A stretch of DNA of 64,000 nucleotides from Paracyclopina nana. Its lineage: Eukaryota > Arthropoda > Copepoda > Cyclopoida > Cyclopettidae. Numbering within the stretch: position 1 is the first letter of the stretch; each line of letters opens with the position of its first letter. The notes beneath the pieces are model-generated. The model did no database searches. It saw only the letters and a program-made list of their open reading frames with translations, and was not told the DNA's origin. Location: the NCBI GenBank assembly GCA_019096065.1, contig JAGUCH010000008.1, positions 2,547,001 to 2,611,000 of the forward strand, read 5' to 3'. The translations under genes and the position numbers were made by a program. This document shows positions 24,101 to 63,821 of this stretch, one piece after another.

Positions 24101-27100
24101 CTTTTAAAAAAAGGCCCGATTTTACGTTCCCGTGTTTTATGCGTATAAATATTATTACATGGTTGTTGCGGGCAGTAAAAATCATGAGCAACTGCCTGCT
24201 GCGAGGCTTAAATTTTCATCAAGAAGAATTGCTGTTGCACTACAGATGTGAAATCGATCTTCCCGCATGTACGTCTGGCTAACAAGCAATCAAGTATTTG
24301 TTAGACTCATGTGGATTTTTGATGCTACTCCACATTATTTTCGTCTTGCTAACCAAGATGGTGGCCGCGGTGGGTCAACTTTCTCGCGCTCAATGATAAT
24401 AGGCACCTTTGGTCGTCGTCGTCATCTCGCATCATGGAGTACGTGCGCTTTAAAAAAGCGAAATTTTTTTATGCCTCGAAAATTACACGTTAAGTGGTGC
24501 AGCACGATGCTAACATATCCGATAATTGACATGCTATCAGGGTTAGATTTAATCCTAAAATCTTGTTACGCAATAAAAGTGCCATAAGACCAATATTATG
24601 GGCAAAAGCACAAATAAATGGGTTTTCGCACTTAATTGGCTCCTGCTTATTTGTCGATGCATCAAATTGCCTCAATTCAATTTGGTCCCATCATGACGTC
24701 CACTTGGTATTCGACTTTTGCAACGAAGTTGTATTGTATTTGACCACCATCTTGGCTCTTTTTCGCGGGCATAATGCGGTTGTAGTACAAGCTTGGAAAG
24801 CTCTAATTTCCGCTTGATCGTAATCATCATGCTCTAATTTACAGTTCCTCTCTACATATGACTGGCTAATAGGCGAGGTCACACATAGTATGCGCGTTAC
24901 ACTCATACCTCTATGATCTTTTGCAGCATTGTGAAATTGCTCGCTGTCACGCCATTTGCTAGGAACAACAGCAGCAGCAGCGGAATATTGTAGATGCTTG
25001 CTTTTTGGGGTATAAATGGTCTTGTTAGCATGAAATCGGTCGTTTGCGCATTGAAATTCAGCCATATACCATCCTACTACAGTGCATATAACACTCAAGC
25101 ATATACGAGCTGAAGCTTGCAGAAACGAGGTGGTGTAGAATAAGTTATGACCTTTTTTCGAACTAGCTCTCATGTGGTTGAGGTGTACTATACGTTTTCG
25201 TTGCTGATTACATGCTATATACGTACGTTGTGGTTATTGCTGCTGCTGCTCGGAAGGGGTGACAAATCAGGCAATAATAAGAATCTGTGCTAGCTTTAGT
25301 CGTACAGCATTATATGTGGTTTTTCTCACGTCTCGCACTAAACTACCTGTACGGTTTATCAAGGCGCAAATTTATCGGGTCTGATAAAAAGGTGAATTAT
25401 GTGACATCGGGCCAATCTGCCACCAGTCAGTACATGCATTATTTTATCTCAGCTTCCCATCTCTTGTATCTTTCGCTTGATGGGCTTTTATGGGGAGTCG
25501 TAATCTTTGTAAATCAAAAGCTTCATTGCAAAGCCATGCAGCCAGGATTTTCCCATGATGAGCCGTATTTTTCTTTTTGCAGGTCTGGCCTCGTCTGCCC
25601 CCGATTCCAATACGCAAACAATGGACGTCCTCGAGGGCGAGACTGTCCTGCTCGAGTGCAAATTTCCCGAGGGCGTTTTCGACAGAGACAGCGCCTACAC
25701 TCACTACTGGATCAGGTCCAATAGGCACGGTCACGACAACGTGGCCATCGGCGGCCTCCAACTCGAGAACAACTACAACCTCGAGTTCCAGCCCGAAAAT
25801 GGCGTCTACCACTTACGCATCTCCAATGCCACGTATGACCGTGATAACGGCCAATTCGAGTGCCGCATGAAGGAGGGCAAAACAGGGAAAATTCTGCACA
25901 CCAAATCGTTCGAGCTGACAGTGCTGCTGAAGCCCTCCAAACCCATCATAAGTCCGGCAAATCCGACAGCCACCGAGGGCAGACCTTTCAATCTGACGTG
26001 CAGCTCATTGGGAGGCTCGCCTCCTCCTCAAATCAAGTGGTACAGATTGGGCCATTCCCAGATGCTTGATGCTACCATTTTGAGAGGAGAGAGTAAAGAT
26101 GAGCCCACCAGATCCGTACTGAATGTGATGCCCACCAAAAATGACGATGGTGCCTCGTACAGGTGCACCGTGTGGAACCGAGCCCTGCGTCAGGAGCACA
26201 GCCTCGAGGCAGGCACCAAGATTTATGTCAACTGTAAGCCACTTCAGATTAACAACTGTCATCCCATTCCGGAGGATTAACTTTTTTTCTCTCTCTCTCC
26301 ATCACAGATTTCCCTCGCATCTCGATGGGCCCAGAAAACCCACTGCAAGTGGAGAAAGATGACACAGCTCAGCTCAACTGCATGGTGGATGCCAAGCCAG
26401 CAGTTACTTCTGTCAAGTGGATGAGAAATGGTCGTTTTATCGACACGCATTTCAAACACACTATTCCCAGGGTGAGCCTGCAAGATGCTGGCACTTATTC
26501 ATGCTCTGCTGACAATGGACTCGGTCAAGTCGGCAAAGAAGACCTCAAACTGGACGTGCTCTATGCTCCTATTGTGACACTCCCGCACAGCCGTGAGGTT
26601 GATGAGAATGACAGTGTTGAGATTGATTGTCAGGTAGATGCCAACCCCAGGCCAACCTCAATCCAGTGGTACAAAGAGAACGATGATCGGTTTGTTCAAA
26701 ATGGGCCCACTCTCCGGCTGCAAAAGGTCACTGCCTTCCACAATGGGCGATATATTTGCTCAACTTCCAATGTGCTCCAGCCAACAGGCAAGGGCAAGGT
26801 GACACGCACTGGAAATGCCACCATTGACATCAACATCAGGCATGCGCCAGGGAAAACGTTCATTTCATCGGATCAGCCTGTGGCTGTCGACGGAAAGCCC
26901 ATCACTTTGAGGTGCGGAGCCTCGCCATCAGGATATCCAGTGCCCCAGTTTAAATGGTGGAAAGATGGCTCAGAGTCCTCTAGCCTGGCTGTTGGATCCG
27001 AATTCACCCTGGATCCTGCCAGGCTGGCCAACACTGGCATCTATCATTGTCAAGCCTCAAATGAGCTGGGCACAGCCTTGGAGGCCTCCATGTACTTGGA

Positions 27101-29179
27101 AGTGTTTAAAGCGCCCAAAATTATTACCCCTCTCCAGCCATCAATCATGAAGACAGAGGGTGAGCCGGGTTTTCACATATCATGCAGTGCTGTAGGTAAA
27201 CCCTTGCCCCGAGTGAAATGGTTCAAAGATGGCCTGGAAATAGATGCTGCAACCATGTACGAAGTATCGACCACAAACCAAGAGGGCGCCAATGAGGATT
27301 TTGCTGTGAGTGTGCACAGTGTGTTGCGATTCCAGGGCCCAGATAGGATTGGCAACAACCACCTCATGTCCACTGATCGCGGCCATTACTCGTGCCAATT
27401 CGAAAACCAAGTGTCCTCAGATGACAGCACAATGCTGCTGCGTGTCGAGCACTCCCCAGTGGTGCTGCACCGGTACAACAAGGTGGCTTTTGATGTTGGC
27501 GAGCCAGCATCCATCATGTGTCGCATGCAAGCCTACCCCAGCCCCAAATTCGACTGGTCATTTGGAAATAGCATCCTACAAGAGGACCCTCGTTTCTACA
27601 AAATGAACCTGACTGCCCAGGTGGAAGATGTGTACGAAGGGCTGCTCCTGATCAAGTCTGTTACTGATTCCAGCTATGGAGACTACGTGTGCAGAGCTAC
27701 AAACAAAATGGGATCAAAGAGAACCATAATTAAGCTGCAGCCCAAGGGGAAACCAGAGAAGCCAGAAAACCTGAAAGTGCAGTTCACAACTTATGATTCC
27801 ATTGGTCTGGCATGGGAGCCCGGCTTCAACGGGGGCTATGAAAATACCGAATTCGTAGTGCAATACAGGCATGGAAACGAGCTGAACTCACATAGCAAAC
27901 AATGCGAGCCGATGGCAACTATTTGTAATATTACTGGCCTCCAACCAAACTCTCCCTACTTGCTAAAAGTGAAAGCTGGCAATCCGCGTGGAGAAAGCAA
28001 ATTCACTGAGGAAATCGTAGCTATGACCAAAGTGGATGCATCGCAGATCCCTGTCCCTAGGAATGTCCACTTTGAGAAGACGACTCAGAAAGCATCATTT
28101 GCAGTCCTAGACAATTCCCTGGAGCTCATCGCGATGATCGAAGTGGAGAACGAGGATGGGACTTGGGCGCTCTTCGACAATTATCCCATGCAGTCCCAGC
28201 TCTTCGGAGAGATCAGCCTCCAAAATATGGTGAGCAATCTCCGCGTGAGATTCTGCCTGGAATTAAATGAGGCTCTGTGCGGTCCATATGCTGAAGCATT
28301 GGTGGTGGACGTGAGGCCCAATGCTGCAACCTCAGCCGCGCTCCGGGAGCCCTGGGTCATTGGCATCATAGTTGTCATCGTCCTTTTGGCAGCCATGGCT
28401 GTGCTCATCATTGTCAGATGCTGCTGCTGCAAGAAGAAAAAAGCGAAAGCTCTCAAAAACGACGACATGAACTCCAACCTCCCACCTCCCCCCTACACCA
28501 CTTCTTCAACGAGTGGAATCGATAATAAGGGAGTGGATACATCCCTCAAAGACTCGGAAGATGCGCTCAAGGCTCATCTGTATGGAGGCTCGTACCACGT
28601 GGAGCAGCCACATTCCAACTCCAATTCGGCCAACGGCGGATCTGTCAATTCTCAGGATTCTTTGTGGAACATCAAAAGTAATGGGGATGTGTACCATGTC
28701 CAACAGCAGCAGCAGCAGCAGCATGTGCCAGCAGGGTATTTTTACGATCCCAATGTGGTTGGCGGAGGCCACCATTTGATGCCTCGAGGTTACAACGCTG
28801 GCAACGAGGACTACACACACTACCCCTATCCGGACGAGTATTTGAACGAGCGCAACAGACAGTATGTGGCAGCAGGCAACAATCCAGTGGATCCATATGC
28901 TGCCATCAACAAGCCAAGACAGCATCAAGACTGTAAGATTGGCTTTTCCCATTTTGTTTTTCTCATCATTTGCTAAAGCTTCGTTTTCCCCTCGCAGATT
29001 CTCAATATGGTGATATTAGCGGGCTTCCGGATCCCTTCCACGAGAGTGCTGAAAGCCATCAAAAACCACAGCAGCAACATCCTATGCAACATATGAGTTT
29101 TGACGATCCCATGGCCGAGAGTGGCTTTTCAACGCCAACTTCGCGGAGTCGACGGATTATACGTGAAATCATTGTGTGA
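15186..29179 (+). CDS. ed/fred: Echinoid/Fred-type Ig-superfamily adhesion receptor, gene A
   Basis: Exons: 15186-15270, 25583-26233, 26308-28932, 28998-29179 (3543 nt, 1180 residues), all introns phase 1. Exon 1 encodes a signal peptide (hydrophobic core LLHATLLVVLCILT) and ends in G, which joins the GT at 25583 in frame. The extracellular part has seven Ig domains (the first begins near residue 35, the seventh near VLHRYNKVAF), a fibronectin III domain and a divergent second one. A TM helix lies at about 927-950, followed by CCCC and KKKK, and a 230-residue cytoplasmic tail ends REIIV. Seven Ig domains plus FN3, TM and EIIV match Drosophila Echinoid, a homophilic/heterophilic adherens-junction receptor affecting EGFR and Notch signalling, whose EIIV binds PDZ proteins such as Bazooka and Canoe. 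I cannot tell ed from fred. A possible polyadenylation signal is AATAAA at 29595. The paralogue lies tail to tail at 31064-44996. Confidence 0.88.
15332..15470. repeat. CCGCTAGATGG repeat family, copy 3
   Basis: It begins TCCGCTAGATGTGATTTGTTT, keeps AAAAAGCCAAAAAGC and CCACTACTGGTACTTTTG, and ends GTGGCGCCATCCCAAG. It therefore retains both inverted ends in degenerate form. It lies 60 bp inside intron 1 of gene A. Confidence 0.55.
15491..15576. repeat. 86-bp hairpin with 34-nt arms
   Basis: Left arm 15491-15524 and right arm 15543-15576 are inverse complements at 29 of 34 positions, separated by an 18-nt loop. It starts TATACAGCCTTAG and ends CTCAGGCTGTATA. It could be a tiny MITE or a pre-miRNA-like hairpin. 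Two mismatches are C-A on the plus strand and would be G-U pairs if the minus strand were transcribed. Confidence 0.55.
19887..20640. repeat. CCGCTAGATGG repeat family, copy 4, split by an insertion
   Basis: The left part (19887-19912) reads CCGCTAGATGGAGCAGCAG followed by TTTGTTA. The family resumes at 20533 with TTTGTTATTG and later shows AAAAAAGCCAAAAAGC and CCACTTCTGGTATTTTTC. The intervening 620 bp is a separate TIR element. Confidence 0.6.
19913..20532. mobile_element. TIR element inserted into an older repeat copy
   Basis: Inverted ends at 19920 (CAGCCAAACTGAGAATCCAC) and 20525 (inverse complement CTGCCAAACCGAGAATCCAC) continue into clusters of the motif TCCACTTTTCCGCGA in opposite orientations. 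The 8-mer GTTTGTTA flanks the whole insertion at 19905-19912 and 20533-20540, which suggests an 8-bp target duplication. Alternatively, CAG termini next to TA recall pogo/Tigger-type elements. The interior (about 20050-20440) has no transposase frame. Confidence 0.6.
26234..26307 (+). other. Intron 2 of receptor gene A with pyrimidine tract
   Basis: The donor is AACT/GTAAGC and the acceptor follows a run of CT repeats (CTCTCTCTCC). The homologous intron of gene B (33944-34010) has a longer CT run before its acceptor at the same codon and phase, so position and tract are conserved between the paralogues. Confidence 0.8.
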
Positions 29180-31063
29180 ATTCATAAGTTGCTACATCCT
29201 GCTGTGATCCATTTTTCCTGCTACGTACTACGATATGTTCTAGTCTGACTCAAAACAAATACCAGTCCCTAATTTCCACCGTTGATTGCTTTCTCCTCTG
29301 TAAGCTGCGAGTTGGATTAGGAGCCAGGGCATTTATTATGCTTAATAATAATAATTTCTGATGATCGATGACGTGTGACATTTGTTACCACAAATTGTTT
29401 ATCTAGGTGTCATTTGTGTTATGCCGTCTATATACATACTATAGTATATTAGGTTGCCACATTTTGCTCAATATTGGTTATTGAATGATCTCCCCCCACC
29501 GCAGACAAATACTTGAAAAATAATAATTTTTGCTAACGAAAATTCATGATGTGCAAAAGTGCCATTTATTGTTTGTGTCGACCGCACCCATCGAAATAAA
29601 CTGAATACAACAAGAATAAATGCGTTTTTTAAAAAGTCTCAAGTAAAAATATTTAAGATTGTCTCATTAGAAATCAGTGGGATTTTTTTTCCTCCTCATG
29701 CATGGAACCACGATGCTTCAAAGAGTGTGAGAGGTTGCGAGAATTTAATCGTACTTTCTTTCCGGTCGAAATCCTTTGCATTATAATTCACGCAAACTTT
29801 GCAATTTTGTGACGCTGTGATTTGTACATATTTTTGCGTTATTGGCACTCTCCTCATTTGGGAGAAATTGGTAAGAGGTGAAATGTGCAACATTAGCGCC
29901 TAACTACTAAATTGCGCGATCCTTGAAATGCGCGACTTGCGCTTCTCCTAAACGATCGCGCAGATCGACATGCGAACTGCTAAAACCTTTTTTTTGCAAA
30001 TTTTGGCCAAAAAACGAAGGTTGCTTTGGCAAACTCGTATTATTTGATTTGGTTTTGTAGCCGATTTTAGTGGCTACAAAATGCGAAAAATCACTACTAC
30101 AATGCGTGAATTAAACTGTGCAATAATTGTAAAAAAATAAATATTGATTAGCATGTACGCGTAGCGCATATTTTTATGTCCCGAGTGAAAACATGATAGA
30201 ATGAAAAGTAATTTTCTTACTTTGTAATGTTACATAGATTTGCTTCTATTTAACTCTAACGTAAAAATATACATTTTTAGTAAGAAAAAAACTTTTTCTG
30301 AAATCAAAGCTGTTAACCTTGTCAGACAATGGTAGATCAAGTTTTATAATTGAAGCCGCGTAAAAGGGGCCATTTTCTTCTTTATCAATTTTATAGCTAT
30401 AGTAAAAATTAAAGTAGGAGCACTCAATTATGGCTCTAAATTATGGCATGATGTGTGAAGTCGATGCTGCAAAAAGGGAGAGAGCACTCTGACAACTCAA
30501 AATACAACTAATGGTCCTACATGATACCGGTCCAACCCCTTTGAAACAAGAAGTAGTTTGGCAGGTTTATTGCAAACCAAAAAAATGCCTGCACCTTTGT
30601 GAGTTGCGCCCAATTATTTTTGCAGCGCCTTATCAAGTTGCCTCGTTAATGTAGCGCGTGAGCCAAGAAAAAAGGCAAATTTTTGCAATGCCTACAAAAT
30701 GGCAATTTTCGTTTATTTCACGATATGAGATCCGAAATTCGATACAGCAGAACATGATGAAAAATGAGCAAATAATATGGATAAAGTACGAATTGACAAA
30801 TACAAAAAATAAGTTCTCTAGCATCTTGATCTTTAAAATAGAGTGTGGGGAGTTGAGCTTTCGTTTAGGTAATTAATATAGAGAGTGTGGCACATGTAAA
30901 GTAGGTTGTAAAAAAGCGCCTAAAAGACGCCCTTTTTTTGACGATTTCTCTTCAGACATGAATCTTCTTGGAATTGCAGCGAGTGGTGGACTAGATGTCG
31001 TTCAAATGCACATTGACAGATTGCACAACATTGATAAAAACCTTCATCGATGAAAAATTACTA
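29180..31063. other. Convergent intergenic region between the two receptor genes
   Basis: This AT-rich 1.9 kb should hold both 3' UTRs. Candidate polyadenylation signals are AATAAA at 29595-29600 for gene A and, on the minus strand, AATAAA at 30717-30712 or 30571-30566 for gene B. No other gene is supported. Confidence 0.55.
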
Positions 31064-34000
31064 CTAGACAATGATCTCTCGAATAATTCTTCGTTGTTGA
31101 TGGCCAGCATTGTAGCTGCCACTGTTGTGTGTCCCGTCTATGGCGTCTTCGAAGGACATCTGGTTGCCACCAGTTGGCGTTTGGGGCTCTTCGAAATCCC
31201 CCATTTGCCCATGGTAGGGATGTGGAATGCCTCCCATATCTCCATATGGCGAATCTAAAAAAGGAGAGCAATTGAGGGCCATGAAGAAATACAAGGCTGG
31301 CATTAAACTTACATTCAAAATCTGCGTTGGGGTGTTGGCCAGTGTGCCTGTAGAATTCACCGTTGATGAATTGCTGGTTGCGCTCATTGAGGTACTCTTC
31401 TGGATGGGGATAATGAGTGTAGTCTTCAGGATATTGCTGCTGTTGCTGAAGCTGCTGTTGCTGCTGCTGATATTGCATTTGATGGTGTTGCTGCTGCTGT
31501 TGCATAGCCATTGCATCGTACACGCCATACCCTTGAGCTTGCATTTGATAGTGATGCAAAAGTGCAGGATCCTGATGCTTCACATTCCACAACGAGTCCT
31601 GAGAATTGACCGAGCCTCCATTGGCAGAGTTGCTGTTGCTCGCACTCTGAGCTTCGACTCCGTAGGACTGGCCAAAGTTGTTTTTGATCATCTCGTCGGC
31701 ATCCTTGAGGGTGTCCACGCCCTTGTTCTCAATGCCATGGTGGTAGGGCGGGGGCTGGGTGGAGTGGACTATGCTTGGCCTCTCGTTGACCGTCTTCTTG
31801 GAGGAAGGAGCAGCTTTCCTGCAGCAGCAGCACTTGATCGTAATGGCAATCGCTAGCAAACCGCCAACCACCACCAGGATGACGATAGCGATCAGCCAGG
31901 CTTGGCTGAGTCCGCTGCCAGTGCTGGGTCTCACGTCAACGAACTGAGCCTCAGCGTAGGGCCCGCAGAGCACTTCATTCGTCTCCAGGCAAAGCCTCAC
32001 TCTGAGGTTGTTGACAACCTGCGCAGCAATGGGCATTTCCTCCACAGAGTTGCGCGTAACCAGTGGCAAATCATCATAATGCACCCAAGTGCCATCGGGG
32101 TTCTCCAGCTCGACTTTGGCCACCAGGGGCAAGTAGTCGTTTTGCACGAGGAAAGATGCAGTGCTGGTCGTCTTCTCAAAGTGGACACTCTCTGCCATGG
32201 GGATTTGGGCCACGTCCACCTTGGTAACAACAGAAGTCTCCTGTGTGTACTTGCTTTCACCCTTGATGTTGCCGGCTTTCACTTTAATGTAGTATTGCGA
32301 ATGCTGCTCCAGAGCCGTGATGTTGCAATAATTTCGAGTCGAGCAATCCACATATTGGGGGAGGGATGAGTCATGCTTTCTGTATTCCAAGGAGTGCGTC
32401 GTGTTGTTATAGCCGCCATCAAAGCCAGCATCAAACCCAATCGTGATGAAGTTGTAGCCCACGTTGATGGGTCGCACGTTGAGGGGCTTCTCCGGCTTTC
32501 CCTTGGGCTGTAACTTGATTATGGTCCTCTTTGCTCCCATCGTGTTGATGCCCTTGCAAATGTAGTCCCCATAGCTGTTTTCAGTCACTTTGTTGATCCT
32601 CAGCACGCCCTCGTAGACGTCGTCTCCCAGGGCAGTAATGTTGGTGTCATAAAACTGCTGGTCATTCTGCAGGATACTGTTGCCGAACGACCAGTCGAAC
32701 CGTGGGCTGGGGAAAGCCTGCATTTTGCATCCGATGAAGGCAGTCTCGTCAAGGTCAAAGGCCACTTTGTTGTGGTGGTGGACCACAACTGGGGAGTGCT
32801 CAATCCTTAAAAGCATGCTGGTCTCGGCGGAGTCGACTTCATTCTCAAATCTGCACATGTACTGGCCCCTGTCAGTGGGCATCAGTTGCTTGGTGCTGAT
32901 CCTGTCAGGCCCAACATACTTGAGGGTGGAGAGGACATTGTAGGCCATATCCGCCACAGCTTCTTGCTCAGCGGTGCTGATTTGGTAGAGGTTCGACTCA
33001 GCATCCACGATTTCTTGGCCATCCTTAAACCACCTGACCTTTGGCTTGGGTTTTCCAATAGCCGAGCAAGTGATGTGGAAACCGGTGTCCCCTGCGCGCT
33101 TCATGATGGTTGATTGCAAATGAGTGATGATCTTGGGGGCTTGGTTCACCTCCAGGTCAATGCTGGCGGCTGAACCCTTGCCAAGTTCGTTGGACGGCTC
33201 GCAAAAGTACTTGCCAGCATTGTTGAGCCTCACCGAGTCAATGGTGAACTCAGATCCAACGGCCAGGGCTGTGTCGCTGCCATCCTTCCACCACCTGAAT
33301 TGGGGCACGGGGTATCCAGGGGGCTTTGCTCCACAAGTCAAAGTGATCCTGCGTCCCTCGACAGCCATTGGCTTCTCTGGCAGAATGAAGCCTTCTCCAG
33401 GCTTGTGCTTGATGTTGACATCAATGGTGGCATTGCCAGACCGTGTTAGCTTCCCCTTGCCTGATGGGTGGAGATGGTTGGTGGCTGAACAAATGTAACG
33501 CCCATTGTTTGTTGCAGTGACACCATTTAGGCGAAGTGTGGGACCATTTTGCACAAATCTCTCATCGCCCTCCTTGAACCACTGGATCGTGGATGGCCTT
33601 GGGTTGGCATCGACACGACAGTCAACCTCAATATTGTCACCCTCGTTGAATTCCCTCTGTGCAGGCTGAAGCGTGACCACTGGGCCATAGAGCACATCGA
33701 GCTTCAGCTCAGATTTGCCCACTTGTCCTAGTCCATTGTCAGCTGAGCAAACATAGGTGCCCGAGTCCTGGAGAGTCACCCTCGGGATGGTGTGCTTGAA
33801 GTGGGTGTCAATAAACCGCCCATTTCTCGTCCATTTCACCGTGCTGACTGTGGGCTTTGCATCTACTTGGCATTCCAATTGAGCAGTGTCATCTTTCTCC
33901 ACTTGAAGCGGATTCTCAGGGCCAACTGACACTCGAGCAAAATCTGGAGAGAGAGAGAGAGAGAAAAGTGAGTGAAACTGAGTTTTGGCTATATAGCTGT

Positions 34001-37000
34001 AAAGTCTTACAGTTGACAAATATCTTGGTAGAAGTCTCGTGTTTCTGATCCTCGCCGAGGGCCCGATTCCAAACTGAGCACATGTAGGTATTGCCATCGT
34101 CTTCCTTGGTGGGGATGATTGTCAGCACAGATTGGGTAGGCTCATCCTTGGTCTTGCCAATCAGCAAATTGGCATCCAAATCCTGCTCCTCCTGGCCCTC
34201 TTTGAACCACCTGATTTGCGGAGGGGGTGAGCCTCCGATGGAGGCGCATGTCAGATTTAATGGTCGGCCTTCAGTGGCAGTGGGATTGGATGGAGTGACC
34301 GTGGGTGGCGAGGGCTGAAGAAGCACCGTGAGCTCTATGGATTTGGAATGCAATTCGATACCCGTCCCACCCTCCTTCATGCGACACTCAAATTGACCGT
34401 TGTCGCGATCGTAGTTGGCCTGACTGATGTGAAGGTCATATTTGCCCTCCTCTGGCTTGTAGTCGACCCTGTGTAGGCATACAAATTGATGGATTAATTG
34501 ACATGATCATGCAACTTTTATGCAATGCTGAGTGCTTACACATAGCTGGCTTGGAAGGGGGTCTCTCCGATGGCCACGTTGTCGTGGCCCTTTCGGTTGG
34601 TCCGTATCCAGTAAAGGGTGGAGGTCTTTTGCGAGAGCTCCGGCGAAAATCTGCACTCGAGTAGGACATTGTCTCTTTCGTTGACGTCTATGCCTTGCTG
34701 TTGGCCATTTATCACGCCTGCCAGGGCTGCTGCAAAATAGAGAAGAATAAGAGTCATGGTTTTCATCATCATCATCATAAGGCTGACACACTTTCTTTCA
34801 GTCGTACATTGTTTTGAGTGGCGATTGTGCCATGCTACATTTGTCATGGTGGTACGAGCGCGGCAACAAATGGCCACATACTATCAAAAATGCATCAAAT
34901 CCTGCTGCTCTACGGTCAGATGTTCAGTGATTCCGCCTGGCGCAGCAAGAAGGGAGAAAGTTGGAGCGTAGGTAAATATTGGAAGATACTCTGGCCCGTA
35001 GTAGTGGATCTATGCTGTTGGAGTTTTTTTGTCATGCCATCCTCATCATCAATAAGCTCGTCTTTTCCAATAGATATCGTCGAAATCAAGGGCCTGGCAA
35101 TTTGTCCGAGGCCCCTCGATGTAATGGAATCGCGCGAGGAGAAATCCGAGCATCAAAAGTGATTAGTTTCTTTGCCTCAGTGACGTGATATGTGTGTGGG
35201 CAAGGCCCCGGGGCCTTTCGCCCATTTTACGAGGATAAAAGCCACCTCCGGCCCATTCATCATGAGGAAAACAATTGCGAGCTTGCAGCAAAATATAAAA
35301 TGCGCGACGTTGCCACAAGAGACTTTAACGGGGTGAGATCGCTATCGTTCATTAGGGAATGCGTTGCAATTGGCTTGCGGCCCTCAAAAATCTGGCTAAA
35401 TTGAACTAACTGGCCAGTTACTATTATCGTCATCATCATCATTTGGTTGGGCGCAAAAACCCAGTTGGTTAGAGTGGTGCGCGGCAAATAGCCGCGAGCT
35501 CGGCCAAGGATTTCTCAACTTTTCCCATGTAGCGTGATGGTGACGCCGAAAACTCAAGCTTCCAAAGCTGGCTGCTAATCATGCGTTGCTGCTTTATTCC
35601 CACCATTGTCTGAGGATGTCAGTTCACCTTTTAAAAGCGGCGTGGTGGCTTTGCTGACTCATTTCCTCCGATGACACTTTTTAAGATTTGCGGCCCGCTA
35701 ACGTCGAACATCGGATATCGGGCACGAAAATGCGGCGAAAGTTTTTAATTTGACTTTGACAAAGTCCGAGAGTCAAAAGCCATTAGCTAGGGGAGGATTC
35801 ATAACGTATGCCTCGAAACGAGCTTTTAATGGTTGCTCGCGTTGTCGTTTTTGGCCGCATTTTTCCCCTATATGTAGCTGCGGTACCATACATATATAAA
35901 CAGTGAATACGTGACCCGCATGATTGATACCGAAGAGTTGCAAAGCAGAAAGCTTCTGGTTGCGTGCTTCTTGCCCACTTGGCCGCGTTGTGGCCAGGTT
36001 TTAGGTTCGCTGACCTCAATCTTGGAGACCTCAACGCGCGGCGGCGGAAAGGCGCGCGCGCGCGAGCTCTCGCGAAGAAGAACTCCGCAGAGGAGGTGTG
36101 GAGCTACCCATCCATCCAAGCGAGCTAACCACCAAGCCAGGTAGAAGATATTGAGTGGAACTCAAGAATTTTGGACACCACAACCACGTACGTAGCCCGG
36201 CCAAGCCATCGAGCTGGCGGAGGAAAAACCAAGCTTGGCCTACCTACGCATCGAAATACAATCGAGAGCAAAAACGCCACGCTTTTAAAACCTCATTACA
36301 AGGGGGTCAAGAGGACGTTAGGGACGCCTCGTAAAAACTTGCACGACCCGCATTCATCTTTTTTTTGCGAAAAAGTAGTGCATAGGGCGTGGCAATGCTT
36401 GGTCATCGTTTGACGCCACTTTTCCAATGATTGGCAGGTAAAGGGGCAAACAATAACAAGTGCGTTTTACGACGATGATCCCCGTGGCCACGATGAATCT
36501 CGGCCAATCTGCAATTAGCGTTTGAGTGACGTTGGAAAACAAGTGGGATTGTTGCAACTACAATAACAGCAACCTTTGGAAGACTCTCCTTTGAAAACCA
36601 ACCATCCGTTCCTCCTCAGCGAAGAAAAGACAAATTGCGAGGCCAGATATGGATACATTGCCCATTTCACGCCGCTTGACTCTCCCATTACATGATGTAG
36701 AGGAAAAACGTTCAACTTTTCACACTCTGGTGGTAAAATGGTTTTCTGGCCGACAACGCCAGCAACTCGGCGCGATGATGGCTGGCCTCAAAACGTGCAA
36801 CAAGTGGACTAATTGCCGGCCATCTTTTACACCTTTCCGCGGGGAGATTTTTCATCACGAACCCACGTCGCAAGCGCACGCCTAAATTGAAAAATTCTTG
36901 GCACACTATTACTTGGCTTTTTTCATTACTGCGGCCAAGGATACGTACGTAATGATGACCAAAAGTCTTTCCACATTTCCAATGGCATTATTATTATTAT

Positions 37001-51320: not shown

Positions 51321-52477
<1,157 letters not shown>

Positions 52478-54733
52478 ATGGAGCTAATGGCTACGCCGGA
52501 GGCCTCTACGTCGAAGGTGGGGAAAAAGGCCAAGAAGACGAAGACCTACCGCTTCGAGCTGAGCCTCGAGGTTGCGAAAAATGGCTACCCTGACTTCAAC
52601 TGGCTCGACTTGGTGGCCAATGAGGAGGAGGCAAGAGCGGAGGCCAAAAAGAGGGAAGCGCTCGACCCGTACGCCAGCGATGATGATGATCAGCTCAAGG
52701 CGTTAGCCAAGAAGTTTGAGGAGAAGTATGGCGGAGCTGGTGAGAAGATTCGCAAGAAGAAGAAGGCTCGCAAGCTCGATGATTATGCCGACCTAGGCTT
52801 CGGCTATGACTCCAATGACCCGTTCATTGACAACTCAGATGTACATGACGAAATTGTGCCCGAGAGCCTCACCACGGCTCATGGGGGCTTCTACATCAAT
52901 TGCGGCCCGCTTGAGTTCAAGGCAAGAGAGTCTGCTGATGAAGACTCAGACGTTGAAGCGGTCCTTGCAGAGGGTGAGAAGGCAGTAGCCAAAAAGCAAC
53001 GCAGTAAAAAGGAGATGGCTGCTGAGCCTAGCTCGGACAAAAAGCCTCCAAGGGCCCGTAAAGAAGGATCCAAGCCTTTGGGACGGCCAAAGAAGAGGAA
53101 CCCAGATGGGTCACTCATGCATCCACCACGGCAGAAGAAGAGGGTGGCCACTGAGGCCACAAGCAATGATGAGAAACAGTTGCTGGAACAGCAGCGGGAG
53201 GAAATGCTTCAGAAGCAATTGCTTCAACAAGTCCAAGAAATGCAGCGAAGACAAGAGGAGCTCCAGAAGCAAAAGGCTGAGAGTGAGAAGAAGAGAAAAG
53301 CAGCTGAACAGGAGCAGAAAAGGCTCAAGGAGACCCAACAGCAAGCAGAACTAGAACAGCAGCTAATCAGAATGTTTGAGCAGCAAAGAAAGCTTGAACA
53401 GGAGCAAATGCAGCAAAAAAGGCTCCAGCAGTTGGAACAACAACGCAAAAACGAGCAAGAGAAAAAGAGACTTCAGCAGTTGGAGCAACAAAGAAGGCTC
53501 CAGCAAAAGTTGGAGCTCCAGAAGAAGGCGGCTGAGAAAGAGCAGCAGCAGAAGAGACTTCAGCAGCAGCAACTTGAGCTCAAACGAAAGGCTGAACAGG
53601 AACAACTGCAACAAAAGCGGCTCCAGCAATTGGAGCTGCAAAAAAAGGCTGAACAGGAGCAACTGCAACAAAAACGGCTCCAGCAATTGGAGCTGCAAAA
53701 AAAGGCTGAGCAGGAGCAACTGCAGCAAAAACGACTACAGCAGTTGCAGTTAGAATTGCAAAAGAAGGCTGAGCAGGAGCAAAAGAAACATCAGCAGCTG
53801 GAGCAACAAAGGCGAGAACAGCTTGTTCTTCTTGAGCAGCAAAAGGCTGAACAGGAAAAAAAGCAGCAACAACTCAAATTCATTGAGCAGCAGCAGCGAC
53901 AGCAGCAGCAAAAGGTTGAGCTAGAAAAGAAGAGAAAAGCGCTTCAGCAACAGCAGGAAAAACAGCGACAATTTGAGGCTCAACAAAAAATGATGCTTCA
54001 ACAGCAGCAGGAGCAGAACAGGCAAGTTGAGCTGCAGAAAAAAATAGCGGAGCAGCAAATGCAACTGAAGCAACAAGAACACCAAAGGCTTCTGAAACAA
54101 CAGCAATTGGAGAAGCAACGGCTTGCGAAGCAGCAGCATATGGAGTCACCTAGGTTTACGTCGCCGCAGCATGATCAGCAGCAACGCACCTTGATTGTAC
54201 AGGCACATGGAGCAAGCAACAAATCTGGCCTGACCATCGAATCCCTCAAAATGAGCCCGCAAAGTCAGGCGCAGCAGTTGTTGCAGCAGCTCCAGCAGCC
54301 CTACCCATCAACCTCTTTAACCAATCTCAAGCAACCATCAACTGGTACTATGATAACTCCCGAGAATGCCTCGCAAATGCTAGCCAGCATGCAGCCTCAA
54401 CCTCCATCATCTTTGGGCCACTACCTGAAAACACCCAATTCCACTCCCCCCAAGCAGCAGCACCTTACACCCAATAGCAACTATTTTGAGCAAACCCAAA
54501 GTATTAGGCTGCCAACAGTGCCAGTGCCTTCCACTTCGGTTTTCTCATCGGGACTAGTGTCTCCTGTGATATCGTCCCATGCAGCTCCCACTTATGTGAA
54601 CACACCCACGGCCCAGTTGCCAACTTTTAGCATGTCATTCACACAGCCAAACCAGGCCTCCCCCACCACTACCGCATATGTCATCCCGAAGGACTCGTAT
54701 CAACACTTTTTTAACAACTCTGCACCAAAGTGA
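52478..54733 (+). CDS. Ubinuclein/yemanuclein, HIRA-complex histone chaperone subunit
   Basis: A single-exon frame of 751 residues starts at ATG 52478. Residues about 105-150 contain GFGYDSNDPFIDNSDVHDE and LTTAHGGFYINCGPLEF, the HPC2/ubinuclein (HRD) domain that binds HIRA and helps deposit histone H3.3. The N-terminal KTYRFELSL segment is also typical. Then come a basic AT-hook-like stretch (KPLGRPKKRN), a long Gln/Glu/Lys-rich coiled coil (about 235-570) and a Ser/Thr/Pro-rich tail. The coiled coil contains tandem 19-residue repeats. I do not see the ubinuclein middle domain, so this homologue may be divergent or shortened; Drosophila yemanuclein is longer. AATAAA at 54735-54740 lies 1 nt after the stop, and the gene converges on TMEM50A 24 bp away. 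Confidence 0.85.
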   Translation: MELMATPEASTSKVGKKAKKTKTYRFELSLEVAKNGYPDFNWLDLVANEEEARAEAKKREALDPYASDDDDQLKALAKKFEEKYGGAGEKIRKKKKARKLDDYADLGFGYDSNDPFIDNSDVHDEIVPESLTTAHGGFYINCGPLEFKARESADEDSDVEAVLAEGEKAVAKKQRSKKEMAAEPSSDKKPPRARKEGSKPLGRPKKRNPDGSLMHPPRQKKRVATEATSNDEKQLLEQQREEMLQKQLLQQVQEMQRRQEELQKQKAESEKKRKAAEQEQKRLKETQQQAELEQQLIRMFEQQRKLEQEQMQQKRLQQLEQQRKNEQEKKRLQQLEQQRRLQQKLELQKKAAEKEQQQKRLQQQQLELKRKAEQEQLQQKRLQQLELQKKAEQEQLQQKRLQQLELQKKAEQEQLQQKRLQQLQLELQKKAEQEQKKHQQLEQQRREQLVLLEQQKAEQEKKQQQLKFIEQQQRQQQQKVELEKKRKALQQQQEKQRQFEAQQKMMLQQQQEQNRQVELQKKIAEQQMQLKQQEHQRLLKQQQLEKQRLAKQQHMESPRFTSPQHDQQQRTLIVQAHGASNKSGLTIESLKMSPQSQAQQLLQQLQQPYPSTSLTNLKQPSTGTMITPENASQMLASMQPQPPSSLGHYLKTPNSTPPKQQHLTPNSNYFEQTQSIRLPTVPVPSTSVFSSGLVSPVISSHAAPTYVNTPTAQLPTFSMSFTQPNQASPTTTAYVIPKDSYQHFFNNSAPK
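53578..53770 (+). repeat. 57-bp coding minisatellite in ubinuclein
   Basis: About three and a half tandem copies encode KAEQEQLQQKRLQQLELQK. Units 2 and 3 are almost identical at the DNA level (TTGGAGCTGCAAAAAAAGGC recurs). Length is therefore likely to vary between alleles. Confidence 0.75.
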
Positions 54734-59801: not shown

Positions 59802-60836
59802 ATGTCGAGCTTCGTGAGCCTCGAGAGCTCCAATACTGTCAATGTTAATCAAGGCCCCACGGGTTTATCTGCCAAATTTGATGTTGACTCCCAATCGGAC
59901 GCGCCGCGGCAAAAGCGGCTAAAATTGAACTTGCGAAGTTTTGAGCATTCCCACCTTATAACCAACATTGAAACACTCTTTGACGAGTGCTTTGAATGCA
60001 TGGAATGCTCGGCTCGGTTCGAAAACAGCGATCATCTCCTGCAGCATTTGGACACGCATCAGCATTTTATGCCTCCCTCTGACAGAAGAGAAGAGGATAA
60101 TTACGACTGTCCACTTTGCCCATACTCCTTGAAAAAAGTAAGGGACATGATGCCTCAAGCTGACCTGAAGGAGGCCTTGGAAAAACACACCATACTGGAG
60201 CATTTCAAGGCAAAAATTCCACCGATTTTGATGGAGCCGCCAGCCGCAATTCACAATGACACCCCAGCGGAAATTGGCCTACCTAGCGTCAATAGCACGG
60301 GAGTGTTCAAATGCAGCGTTTGCACTAAATCCTTCGATCAGTTGTACCAGCGACGCATTCACGAGCGTTACAATCATGAAGATTCGGTGACGAGAAATAT
60401 TGCTGAAATGAAGAAGCTCATCAAATGTCCCACCTGCAAATCATTATGCAGAAATGAAAAGCAGTTGAAGCTGCACAAGGAAATGTATTGTGACGTGGGA
60501 TTTCCGTGCCAGCAATGCACTGACAGGTTTGCCAAAATCACCCAATTGGCTTCTCACATGAAGTTGAAGCATGGCGCTGTTGCTGGGGTGAAGACGCGAG
60601 AAATTTTCATTCCGGTGAGCGCCCCAGAGGAAGATCAAACTGGAGCCCCAACGAGGCATAAATGTGTCATTTGTGGAGTTATGCCGGCCTCTGGTGAAGA
60701 CTTGGTCGTGCATATTCTAAATCGGCACAAGTTTGACATTACCTCTGTGAAGCCAGCTCAGTGTGACAAGTGCCAACATAGAGCATCCGATGCAAAGACA
60801 TTTGCTGATCATTATCGACGACAGCATTGCTCATAG
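59802..60836 (+). CDS. C2H2 zinc-finger protein, seven finger-like modules
   Basis: An intronless frame of 344 residues begins MSSFVSLESSNTVN. Cys-X2-Cys modules occur at CMECSARF, CPLCPYSL, CSVCTKSF, CPTCKSLC, CQQCTDRF, CVICGVMP and CDKCQHRA. Each is followed by His-X3-5-His or a variant (the fourth ends H-X4-C). The second module has a long insertion between Cys and His pairs. The N-terminal 65 residues are low in recognisable motifs, and there is no BTB, ZAD or KRAB domain. A nuclear DNA- or RNA-binding role is likely, but I do not recognise an orthologue. AATAAA at 60845 gives a very short 3' UTR. Confidence 0.88.
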   Translation: MSSFVSLESSNTVNVNQGPTGLSAKFDVDSQSDAPRQKRLKLNLRSFEHSHLITNIETLFDECFECMECSARFENSDHLLQHLDTHQHFMPPSDRREEDNYDCPLCPYSLKKVRDMMPQADLKEALEKHTILEHFKAKIPPILMEPPAAIHNDTPAEIGLPSVNSTGVFKCSVCTKSFDQLYQRRIHERYNHEDSVTRNIAEMKKLIKCPTCKSLCRNEKQLKLHKEMYCDVGFPCQQCTDRFAKITQLASHMKLKHGAVAGVKTREIFIPVSAPEEDQTGAPTRHKCVICGVMPASGEDLVVHILNRHKFDITSVKPAQCDKCQHRASDAKTFADHYRRQHCS

Positions 60837-61441
60837 ATTGTTCTAATAAAACTCTTGAATTATACCAACTTGCATTTCAGCCCTCGCATTGCACATTGAC
60901 CTGGGTTGCACCCAAAAGTTATGTATAGTATTCTGAAAGCGTATTCATAGGGTTCATATGCTCTTAATTTTAAAATTCTGGACCGTCCCTTCCATAGCAC
61001 AACATCTTAGAAACTTTTAGCATCCCCAATTTTTTATTTTTTGGGATATTCAATATCAATGGCCCCTTCTGAAAAAGCAGCTCTGTTATTGCATAAGTCT
61101 CTGGTTGCTACCAAACATATCACACAGCTCATCCTGGCGATTTCAAAAAGAAGTAAGATATGTTTTATTTTCTAACTTCAGAAAGGGTCATTGCACCTAA
61201 TTATCCCTAAAAAATTTAACCGTATATGCGCTAAAACTTTTTAAATTGTTTGCTAGGATAATTCTTTTAAAACGTGTGCTCTTTTTCGGGCATATTTCTT
61301 TTCTCAATCGATTAGCTCGAGCTAAAATCGATCCATTGAAAACAACAACACAAGTACAATACGACTACGAGTTAGAGTTACAACAGCGGCTTGAACATTG
61401 ATCAAGCTGCAGAGATCTTTCAAAATTTTTCCGTCGTTCCA
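60837..61441. other. Intergenic region
   Basis: AT-rich DNA between the C2H2 gene and acylphosphatase. Nothing beyond the polyadenylation signal at 60845 and a presumed promoter near 61.3-61.44 kb can be supported. Confidence 0.45.
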
Positions 61442-63821
61442 ATGGCAAAGCTAATCCGGCTGAATTTTGAAGTATTTGGAAAAGTGCAAGGTGAGCTCTA
61501 GTTCCATGTTGCATTTTCTCCGTTATTTTCAATGTTAGCTCTTTTCAGGCGTGTTTTTTCGTAAGGTGAGTTTTTGAGCACTGAATCTCTCTGCACGCGA
61601 ACATTTTCAAAAACATGGGCAGCTCCTCCGAGTGCTACAATCTCACGTGGAACGAGTTCCAGTCCAGCGTGGCCAACAGCTTTGTCAGCTTGAGGAACGA
61701 AGAGGACTTCCTCGACTGCACAGTGGCCATCGATGAGGATCACCAGTTGCAAGCCCACAAGGTGATCTTGTCAGCCACCTCTCCCTACTTCCACTCAATG
61801 CTGAAAAGGAACCCTTCGCAACATCCTGTCCTTGTCATGCCGCCAAACGTTCGTTTCTCAGACTTGGCTGCTGTCATCGACTTCATTTACCAGGGAGAAG
61901 TCAAGGTGCCAATCGGCGAGTTCACCGAATTCATGGCACTTGCTGAGCTCCTGAAGATTCGAGGCTTGACAGAAGATGGCAGCAAAAACAAGCCGACAAG
62001 CGGCAAAGCCAAGCCAATTATTCCTCCAACGGGAAGAATGGCTAGAAGGCGTTCTGGACCCACGCTGCCTTCACCCAATCCAGGACAGCCTCAACAAGTG
62101 GCCAAGAGGCCAAGAATGATCCCTCCAGCAGCCATGAATCCGCCAAAGTTTCCTCCTGTTCCGCCTCCGCCCTCAGCAGAAGAGGACGAGGATGTGCACG
62201 AGCTGGACGATGAAGGCAGTGACATGTATGGAGAATTTGACGAGTCCTTTGAAGGCCAAGAATTCGCGCTGGAGCAGCCTCCGCCAGCTGGCAATCCAGC
62301 TGTGCCCGGCCCTTCAACGCAGACACCTTCAGCATCGCCAGGACTGCAATTGACTGGACTGTTGTGCCCCAAGTGTCGTCAAATGTGTCATGGAGTGGAA
62401 GCGTTGAAGGATCACATGGCAAAGTCTCACGGAATGGCAGCCAGCAGCAGTTCTGGGGAGCAACCAGCCAAGCAACCAGCTCAGGACGAGGAGAAGCTTT
62501 ATATCTGCCACATTTGCGACAAGGGCTTCAAAACGTCCAAGTATGTGCAGGCTCATATCAAGCGAGTCCACAAGGTGGGAGCCTCGTCCATGGGAGAGCA
62601 CCATGATGAAGCCGAGGGAATGGATCCGCAAATGCAAGGCGCTGTCGTCACCCCTGGAAAGAAAAAAGGCCGTCCAAAAAAGCAACAGCAGCAGCCTCAA
62701 GTGCAACAACAACAGCAACAGCCTCCCTTGCCAGGAATGTCACGACCCATCGGGCAAGTGTCACCTGCCCCCCGACCTCCCTTGGGAGATGGCAAGGATG
62801 TTGTTGTTGCTCCTGAACCTATGCCAAGGCCACCTGTGTCTCAACAAGACCGATCCTCATCCTTGGTACCCATGGCTCCCAGGCCAAGAGTGCCTGGAAT
62901 GATGTCCCCGAGTGGACTCAAGAGGCCTATGCCTCAACAAGGCATTTTAGGGCCTGGCATGAGACCCAGGGGCCCTGCTCCCCCTCAACAGCAGTTCCAG
63001 CCTCAGTCGTTTCCCCACCAGCAACAGCAGCCTGTTGACATCAAACGACTTGGGATGAAGCTTGGCGGAGCCATTTCCATCACTTCTTCGGATCAAGGCC
63101 AAGGAGGATCGTCTATGGTTGCAGCCTCGGTTCCCAGGAGGCCGATGGGAGGCCCCAGCACAAGTGGTAGCAGGGGTCACGTTTCCAGTCCTAAAAGTGA
63201 CCCTTTGGCTACTCCTCGGCCTCCAGTGGCATCAGCTCAGAGGCAAGCTCAAGACTCGCAAGTTATCATCAAGGAGGAGCCCATGGATGATATGTATGAG
63301 GAAGGCGAGGAAATGGGGGAAGATTTGGAAGAAGAGGAGGATGAAAACTTTGGCGAGGAAGAGGAGGAAGAAGAGGAGGAGGAAGAGGAGGACGATCATG
63401 AATATGCAGAGGGCATGTATGGAGGCGAGGCTGCATATGACGATGAAATTGAGCACGATGGAGGAGCTTACCAGCAATGAATGACGACGAAACATGGAAT
63501 AATTGCATATATATTTAAGTAACGCACACGATATGACTGTATTCGAATTTGAGGTTTCTTCGTTCCATTGTAATAAAATAACGAACATTGTTTCAGTACA
63601 CGCAAAAGGAAGCTGTTAAAATAGGTGTGCATGGCTGGATCAGGAATACTGCCAATCGTACTGTTCAGGGCGAGCTTGAAGGTCCGGAGGAAAAAGTGGC
63701 TGCGATGAAAAAGTGGTTGGAGAAAACTGGGTCGCCCTCGTCACGAATTGACAAAGCAGTCTTCTCAAATGAGCGAGAGATTAAAGAGCAAGTGTTCAGC
63801 GATTTTCAAATTAGGCATTAA
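61442..63821 (+). CDS. Acylphosphatase with a gene nested in its second intron
   Basis: Exons: 61442-61490, 61549-61565 (17 nt), 63597-63821 (291 nt, 96 residues; family usually 98-99). The product runs MAKLIRLNFEVFGKVQG, then VFFRK from the micro-exon, then YTQKEAVKIGVHGWIRNT to GSPSSRID. The catalytic Arg21 in GKVQGVFFRK and Asn39 in GWIRNT are present. The enzyme hydrolyses acyl phosphates such as 1,3-bisphosphoglycerate and carbamoyl phosphate in the cytosol. Splice joins are phase 1 then phase 0 with GTGAG donors and TTTTCAG/TTTCAG acceptors. Intron 2 (61566-63596) encloses the whole BTB-zinc-finger coding region on the same strand. AATAAA for this gene is at 63838. Confidence 0.93.
61615..63480 (+). 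CDS. BTB/POZ C2H2 zinc-finger protein nested in acylphosphatase intron 2
   Basis: An intronless frame of 621 residues. The BTB domain (about 1-125) shows the insect signature YNLTWNEFQSSVANSF, FLDCTVAIDE, QAHKVILSATSPYF and FIYQGEV. Two C2H2 fingers follow at about 250-273 (CPKC to HMAKSH) and 296-318 (CHIC to HIKRVH). After them come an AT-hook-like KKKGRPKK, poly-Q, a Pro-rich region, IKEEPMDD (a likely SUMO-acceptor site) and a run of acidic residues. It is probably a nuclear transcriptional regulator of the tramtrack-type BTB group; no specific orthologue is claimed. The ATG lies 49 bp after the 5' splice site of the host intron, and its AATAAA (63572) is 20 bp before the host's third exon. 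Absence of introns suggests a retroposed origin. Confidence 0.93.
   Translation: MGSSSECYNLTWNEFQSSVANSFVSLRNEEDFLDCTVAIDEDHQLQAHKVILSATSPYFHSMLKRNPSQHPVLVMPPNVRFSDLAAVIDFIYQGEVKVPIGEFTEFMALAELLKIRGLTEDGSKNKPTSGKAKPIIPPTGRMARRRSGPTLPSPNPGQPQQVAKRPRMIPPAAMNPPKFPPVPPPPSAEEDEDVHELDDEGSDMYGEFDESFEGQEFALEQPPPAGNPAVPGPSTQTPSASPGLQLTGLLCPKCRQMCHGVEALKDHMAKSHGMAASSSSGEQPAKQPAQDEEKLYICHICDKGFKTSKYVQAHIKRVHKVGASSMGEHHDEAEGMDPQMQGAVVTPGKKKGRPKKQQQQPQVQQQQQQPPLPGMSRPIGQVSPAPRPPLGDGKDVVVAPEPMPRPPVSQQDRSSSLVPMAPRPRVPGMMSPSGLKRPMPQQGILGPGMRPRGPAPPQQQFQPQSFPHQQQQPVDIKRLGMKLGGAISITSSDQGQGGSSMVAASVPRRPMGGPSTSGSRGHVSSPKSDPLATPRPPVASAQRQAQDSQVIIKEEPMDDMYEEGEEMGEDLEEEEDENFGEEEEEEEEEEEEDDHEYAEGMYGGEAAYDDEIEHDGGAYQQ

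Follow-up and report, generated by a model that had tools for sequence, protein, structure and literature searches.

Introduction

Genes nested within an intron of another gene and transcribed from the same strand represent an already well-known arrangement. In Drosophila, 865 host genes contain 1,651 nested genes, 727 of which run in the host's direction, and in both of the pairs tested, ytr-eIF6 and xl6-nop5, the host RNA ignores the poly(A) signal of the nested gene; deletion of the 5′ splice site gave intronic poly(A) signals back their function (PMC3890989, in the portion available). Among simple nested pairs, the two genes share a strand in 76 of 296 human and 55 of 248 mouse cases; according to the portion available of the same study, nested genes are mostly opposite-strand, and external genes are long and contain numerous large introns (PMC8467205).

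Acylphosphatase genes are present in copy numbers of 2:6:2 in bee, fly and mosquito (in the source's order of naming), and the available portion of that source reports a nested cluster other than one in an acylphosphatase intron (PMC1847477). None of the literature matches listed describes an acylphosphatase intron that harbors a nested gene, which is weak evidence of absence, and nothing was found among them on acylphosphatase intron positions in other animals.

Here we describe such a pair in the copepod Paracyclopina nana, within a 64,000-nucleotide stretch of contig JAGUCH010000008.1 (the window, to which all coordinates refer). A complete BTB-zinc-finger gene, the guest, occupies the second intron of an acylphosphatase gene, the host, on the same strand, confirming what the initial annotation had reported. 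The pair is tidy and very tightly packed.

Organization of the nested pair

The features of the locus are listed in Table 1. When joined, the three host exons encode a 96-aa protein that matches the Pfam acylphosphatase family PF00708 (2.2e-23, 82.7 bits; cut-off 22.5), aligns gap-free over residues 4–94 with structure 6cbu (Acylphosphatase-1, ACYP1; 5.9e-32), and also matches structure 1urr (CG18505 protein, presumably from Drosophila; 2.1e-26). Arg and Asn are the catalytic residues of acylphosphatases; host Arg21 and Asn39 align with those of ACYP, and intron 2 separates the one in exon 2 from the other in exon 3. A Pfam search of the whole compact genome (92 Mb, 10 contigs) recovers a single acylphosphatase stretch, which is the host gene, and querying the genome with the joined protein, with E values up to 10 allowed, returns two matches, its own exon 3 and exon 1, and thus no second copy of either; a very diverged or intron-broken copy could be missed by these searches, and the 17-nt exon 2 on its own is too short for them. 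Because the host protein is full-length and the sole acylphosphatase detected, any working enzyme of this family in the species would require removal of intron 2 by splicing.

Table 1. Sequence features of the acylphosphatase host gene and its BTB-zinc-finger guest.
Feature	Position	Strand	Remarks
Two ATCGAT (DRE-like) hexamers	61307–61312, 61327–61332		Candidate host promoter elements
Acylphosphatase coding exon 1	61442–61490	+	49 nt, 16 codons + 1 base
Host intron 1	61491–61548	+	58 nt, GTGAGC...TTTCAG
Acylphosphatase exon 2	61549–61565	+	17-nt microexon coding Arg (residue 21)
Host intron 2	61566–63596	+	2,031 nt, phase 0, GTGAGT...TTTCAG
Guest CDS, BTB-zinc-finger protein	61615–63480	+	621 aa, one open frame
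Guest poly(A) signal AATAAA	63572–63577	+	17 nt ahead of acceptor AG
Candidate branch site TAAC	63579–63582	+	Adjoins poly(A) signal; motif only
Host intron 2 acceptor AG	63595–63596	+	Weak, 3.5 by small own-genome matrix
Acylphosphatase coding exon 3	63597–63821	+	225 nt including stop; codes Asn (residue 39)
Host poly(A) signal AATAAA	63837–63842	+	Motif

The guest product has an N-terminal BTB domain (Pfam, 2e-21) and a zf-C2H2 match at residues 296–319 that falls just under the Pfam curated cut-off (E 2.1e-4, 22 bits against 25.2), in which the four zinc ligands can all be read; inspection by eye revealed another C2H2-like motif, LLCPKCRQMCHGVEALKDHMAKSHG. We take it to be an arthropod TTK-type BTB-zinc-finger protein. 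Neither a gap-free enzyme nor a 621-codon ORF containing a BTB domain is due to chance.

The guest fills the intron, as proposed initially: its CDS covers 92% of the length, leaving 165 nt, and the guest start codon does follow the host 5′ splice site by 49 nt, as reported. The guest AATAAA is likewise close to the host acceptor, at 17 nt rather than the 20 nt claimed, such that poly(A) signal, candidate branch point and acceptor all lie within 25 nt. It is the sole AATAAA or ATTAAA from 61400 to the host acceptor, with none inside the guest CDS. None of 11 reference introns (described below) has an AATAAA in its last 40 nt; host intron 2 has one, followed by TAAC, and the branch-site motif YTRAY has no match in 63481–63600. 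With the poly(A) signal inside host intron 2, splicing of this intron and polyadenylation of the guest are mutually exclusive on any single RNA molecule, a consequence of the layout that had been anticipated.

Neighboring genes

A second zinc-finger gene, a single-frame C2H2 gene encoding 344 aa (59802–60836, + strand), is situated directly upstream of the nested pair and ends ~600 nt ahead of the host ATG. Further to the left are two multi-Ig membrane-protein genes arranged tail-to-tail (25555–28976, + strand; 31044–34380, − strand) that are similar by eye; the Pfam analysis covered 25555–26277 and 31044–34097, and we presume both to be nephrin- or hibris-like. A Ubinuclein/HPC2-domain protein (HUN, 1.7e-20) with a very long Q/K/E-rich stretch is encoded at 52469–54733, and is adjoined on the opposite strand by a ribosomal RNA adenine dimethylase gene (51321–52073).

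Splice and start signals

Splice sites were scored with a matrix built on 11 introns inferred in BTB paralogues of the same genome; all are in BTB genes and were picked by best profile score, and the scores are rough. Locus L052, the halves of which overlap (best candidate 37 nt), was omitted from this set for that reason. Host acceptor 1 scores 10.2, level with the top of the reference acceptors. Donor 2 (61566) scores 6.7, which places it in the top 1.3% of the window's 3,178 GTs; the same matrix rates every GT in the guest CDS lower, so transcripts containing donor 2 should be spliced there. Acceptor 2 is weak, its score of 3.5 being reached by 11% of the 4,058 AGs of the window and by 17 AGs inside intron 2 itself; set beside the reference acceptors (leave-one-out range 1.8 to 10.2) it is the third lowest, within the range but low.

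Three AGs are located near the guest ATG, at 61565 (AAG, the end of exon 2; score 4.0), 61570 (GAG; −3.4) and 61578 (GAG; 3.4), and the first and third of these score like acceptor 2. The two GAGs are the only AGs from donor 2 to the guest ATG, and YAG is absent from the 49 nt that separate this donor from the start codon. The guest ATG has a good context (−3 A, +4 G) and that of the host is weak (−3 C).

The two ATCGAT hexamers, which we take to be DRE-like, are 20 nt apart and lie 135 and 115 nt ahead of the host ATG. This hexamer occurs at 13 sites in the window versus 19 expected by composition, and these form the only pair within 30 nt; the next closest, at 51375 and 51411, are 36 nt apart. 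There is no TATA box and no strict Inr (TCAKTY) in 61000–61660, so an independent guest promoter draws no support from these motifs.

Transcription of host and guest

The reading that we prefer, tentatively and at a little under even chances, is that the guest mRNA starts no earlier than the host 5′ splice site and is polyadenylated at its own signal, and that RNAs bearing the splice site give rise to acylphosphatase. RNAs with the 5′ splice site at 61566 would be defined as host pre-mRNA, in which the guest poly(A) signal would be silenced, the 2-kb intron removed and acylphosphatase made; this silencing step is suggested by analogy to the two Drosophila pairs and reporters. Guest mRNA would derive from RNAs starting at or just past 61566, a predicted start position that gives a leader of no more than 49 nt. 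With no 5′ splice site upstream, the AATAAA at 63572 would become exonic, and cleavage would probably fall on or near the host acceptor.

Several observations argue for this order of events. The guest has a start, stop and AATAAA of its own and a CDS free of earlier poly(A) signals, donor 2 is strong, the region from this donor to the guest ATG offers just the two GAGs as AGs, and both same-strand nesting and a nested poly(A) signal ignored by the host have precedents in Drosophila (PMC3890989, portion available). Counting against it are the position of the only promoter-like motif pair upstream of the host, the shortness of the leader, the weakness of acceptor 2 (3.5), which would also suit intron retention, and the AGs at 61565 (4.0) and 61578 (3.4), which permit a spliced shared leader. 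From the limit on leader length follows a sharp prediction for CAGE. Provided that both genes are active, the locus would offer a compact, natural setting in which to test the silencing of a poly(A) signal by a 5′ splice site upstream of it, because the poly(A) and 3′ splice signals are confined to 25 nt and the 5′ splice site is 49 nt from the guest ATG. It is unlikely that the arrangement acts as a cis switch between enzyme and transcription factor, set by the side of one 5′ splice site on which the RNA starts or by whether that site is bound; in such a switch, the closeness of poly(A) signal, candidate branch point and acceptor would make cleavage factors and the spliceosome compete for one stretch of RNA.

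A real possibility, improbable on balance, is the one-promoter switch suggested in the initial annotation, in which both RNAs start from the host transcription start site. Splicing of intron 2 would then yield acylphosphatase; alternatively, intron 2 would be retained, or exon 1 spliced to a weak site preceding the guest, the RNA would be cut after 63572, and ribosomes would reach the guest ATG by leaky scanning through that of the host. The abutment of a weak host acceptor and a poly(A) signal fits such a choice, as does the placement of the hexamer pair. In an RNA that has lost intron 1 but retains intron 2, the sole ATG upstream of the guest is the weak host ATG, whose frame ends after 25 codons, short of the guest's own strong-context ATG; when polyadenylated at the guest signal, this RNA would encode from the host ATG a 25-residue peptide without the catalytic Asn. 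The candidate acceptors at 61565 and 61578, similar in score to acceptor 2, would serve the spliced form, but with either of them the host-ATG frame passes the guest ATG (58 or 68 codons), so the guest would depend on leaky scanning. Also unfavorable are the strength of donor 2 and the finding in Drosophila that intronic poly(A) signals are silenced by a 5′ splice site upstream of them, their use being described as very rare (PMC3890989, portion available).

A host-guest fusion protein was considered separately and rejected: the host frame stops after 25 codons when intron 2 is kept and after 19 when both introns are kept, and splicing to the weak acceptors at 61565 or 61578 puts the guest out of the host frame.

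Origin of the guest

A genome search with the guest gave at least 57 matches including the guest itself, and 48 regions covering the 56 others were fetched. The best other match is 49% identical over residues 1–123 (the BTB domain), is single-frame there, and sits in a 726-codon open frame that also has a C2H2 finger. A tree of 47 paralogue rows puts the guest in an unresolved fork; L031, L049 and the first half of L052, each covering half a domain, were omitted from it, and the second half of L052 was kept. The BTB domain is in one frame in 36 of the 47 rows, some of which cover only part of it (L052, a half domain, was counted as unsplit), and is split by an intron in the other 11. Elsewhere in the genome, the BTB domains of L026 (C7) and L028 (C3) are nearly identical and on different contigs, probably reflecting a recent duplication.

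The 11 introns inferred in BTB paralogues have a median length of 64 nt; nine are 50–105 nt and two about 500 nt. Together with the 165 nt left of host intron 2 when the guest CDS is subtracted, these lengths suggest a probably short intron prior to the arrival of the guest. The present intron would thus be long only because of the guest and otherwise of ordinary short length, and the guest may have moved into an acylphosphatase intron that was probably short.

An unlikely origin, and one that would be compatible with either expression model, is insertion of the guest into the host intron as a retrogene that acquired a promoter there. A single-frame CDS is expected of it, and the GC content of the guest is 0.545 against 0.44 in the host CDS, but with most paralogue rows also single-frame over the BTB domain the lack of introns is not diagnostic. 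Eight exact bases shared by the flanks, at 61598 and 63582, are placed like a target-site duplication and extend to 12 matches in 14 columns in a gapped alignment. This similarity is reached by 581 of 3,000 whole-flank shuffles, and by 79 of 3,000 when the test is confined to a stretch picked post hoc, and four different 8-mers are common to the wider flanks. No poly(A) tail was seen at the guest, and there is no recent parent, the best paralogue being at 49% over the BTB domain and itself single-frame. As a recent event, the retrogene raised in the initial annotation is not supported, given the divergence of the best paralogue, the non-significant flank repeat and the frequency of single-frame paralogues.

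A target-site duplication as such is not supported, since the match near both guest borders is not significant against shuffles. The two copies themselves read CGAACAT(TG)TTTCA, at 61598–61609 ahead of the guest ATG and at 63582–63595 at the host acceptor.

That the host gene is not spliced as modeled and the nesting is only apparent, as the weak acceptor 2 might suggest, is highly implausible given that the three exons yield a gap-free acylphosphatase with both catalytic residues and that no other exon 1 or exon 3 copy was found in the genome.

Comparison with known nested and shared loci

Several described loci share features with this one. As in mouse H13/Mcts2, a gene is nested in an intron; the activity of the nested gene there affects host 3′ processing, its transcription leading to host polyadenylation at an upstream intronic site under imprinting (PMC13309782, portion available). 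The C. elegans unc-60A/unc-60B locus resembles the present one in having two coding fates through processing of an early intron, but its products are related proteins and a common first exon is spliced to both series, whereas the proteins here are unrelated (PMC3469465, portion available). The VAChT gene of Ixodes ticks, in intron 1 of ChAT, likewise has its ORF whole in one exon on the host strand; there, RT-PCR confirmed splicing of an 82-bp exon 1, common to both genes, to the guest exon (PMC7524744, portion available). Unlike this cholinergic locus, the present one has only weak candidate acceptors ahead of the guest ATG and no known functional link between the two genes.

Contrary to the nested genes and long external genes described in the available portion of PMC8467205, the guest is on the same strand and its host is short. 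The Drosophila pairs ytr-eIF6 and xl6-nop5 share with it a same-direction gene with its own poly(A) signal in a host intron (PMC3890989, portion available); the gene families differ, and in the present pair the guest CDS takes up 92% of the intron and its poly(A) signal is 17 nt from the acceptor AG.
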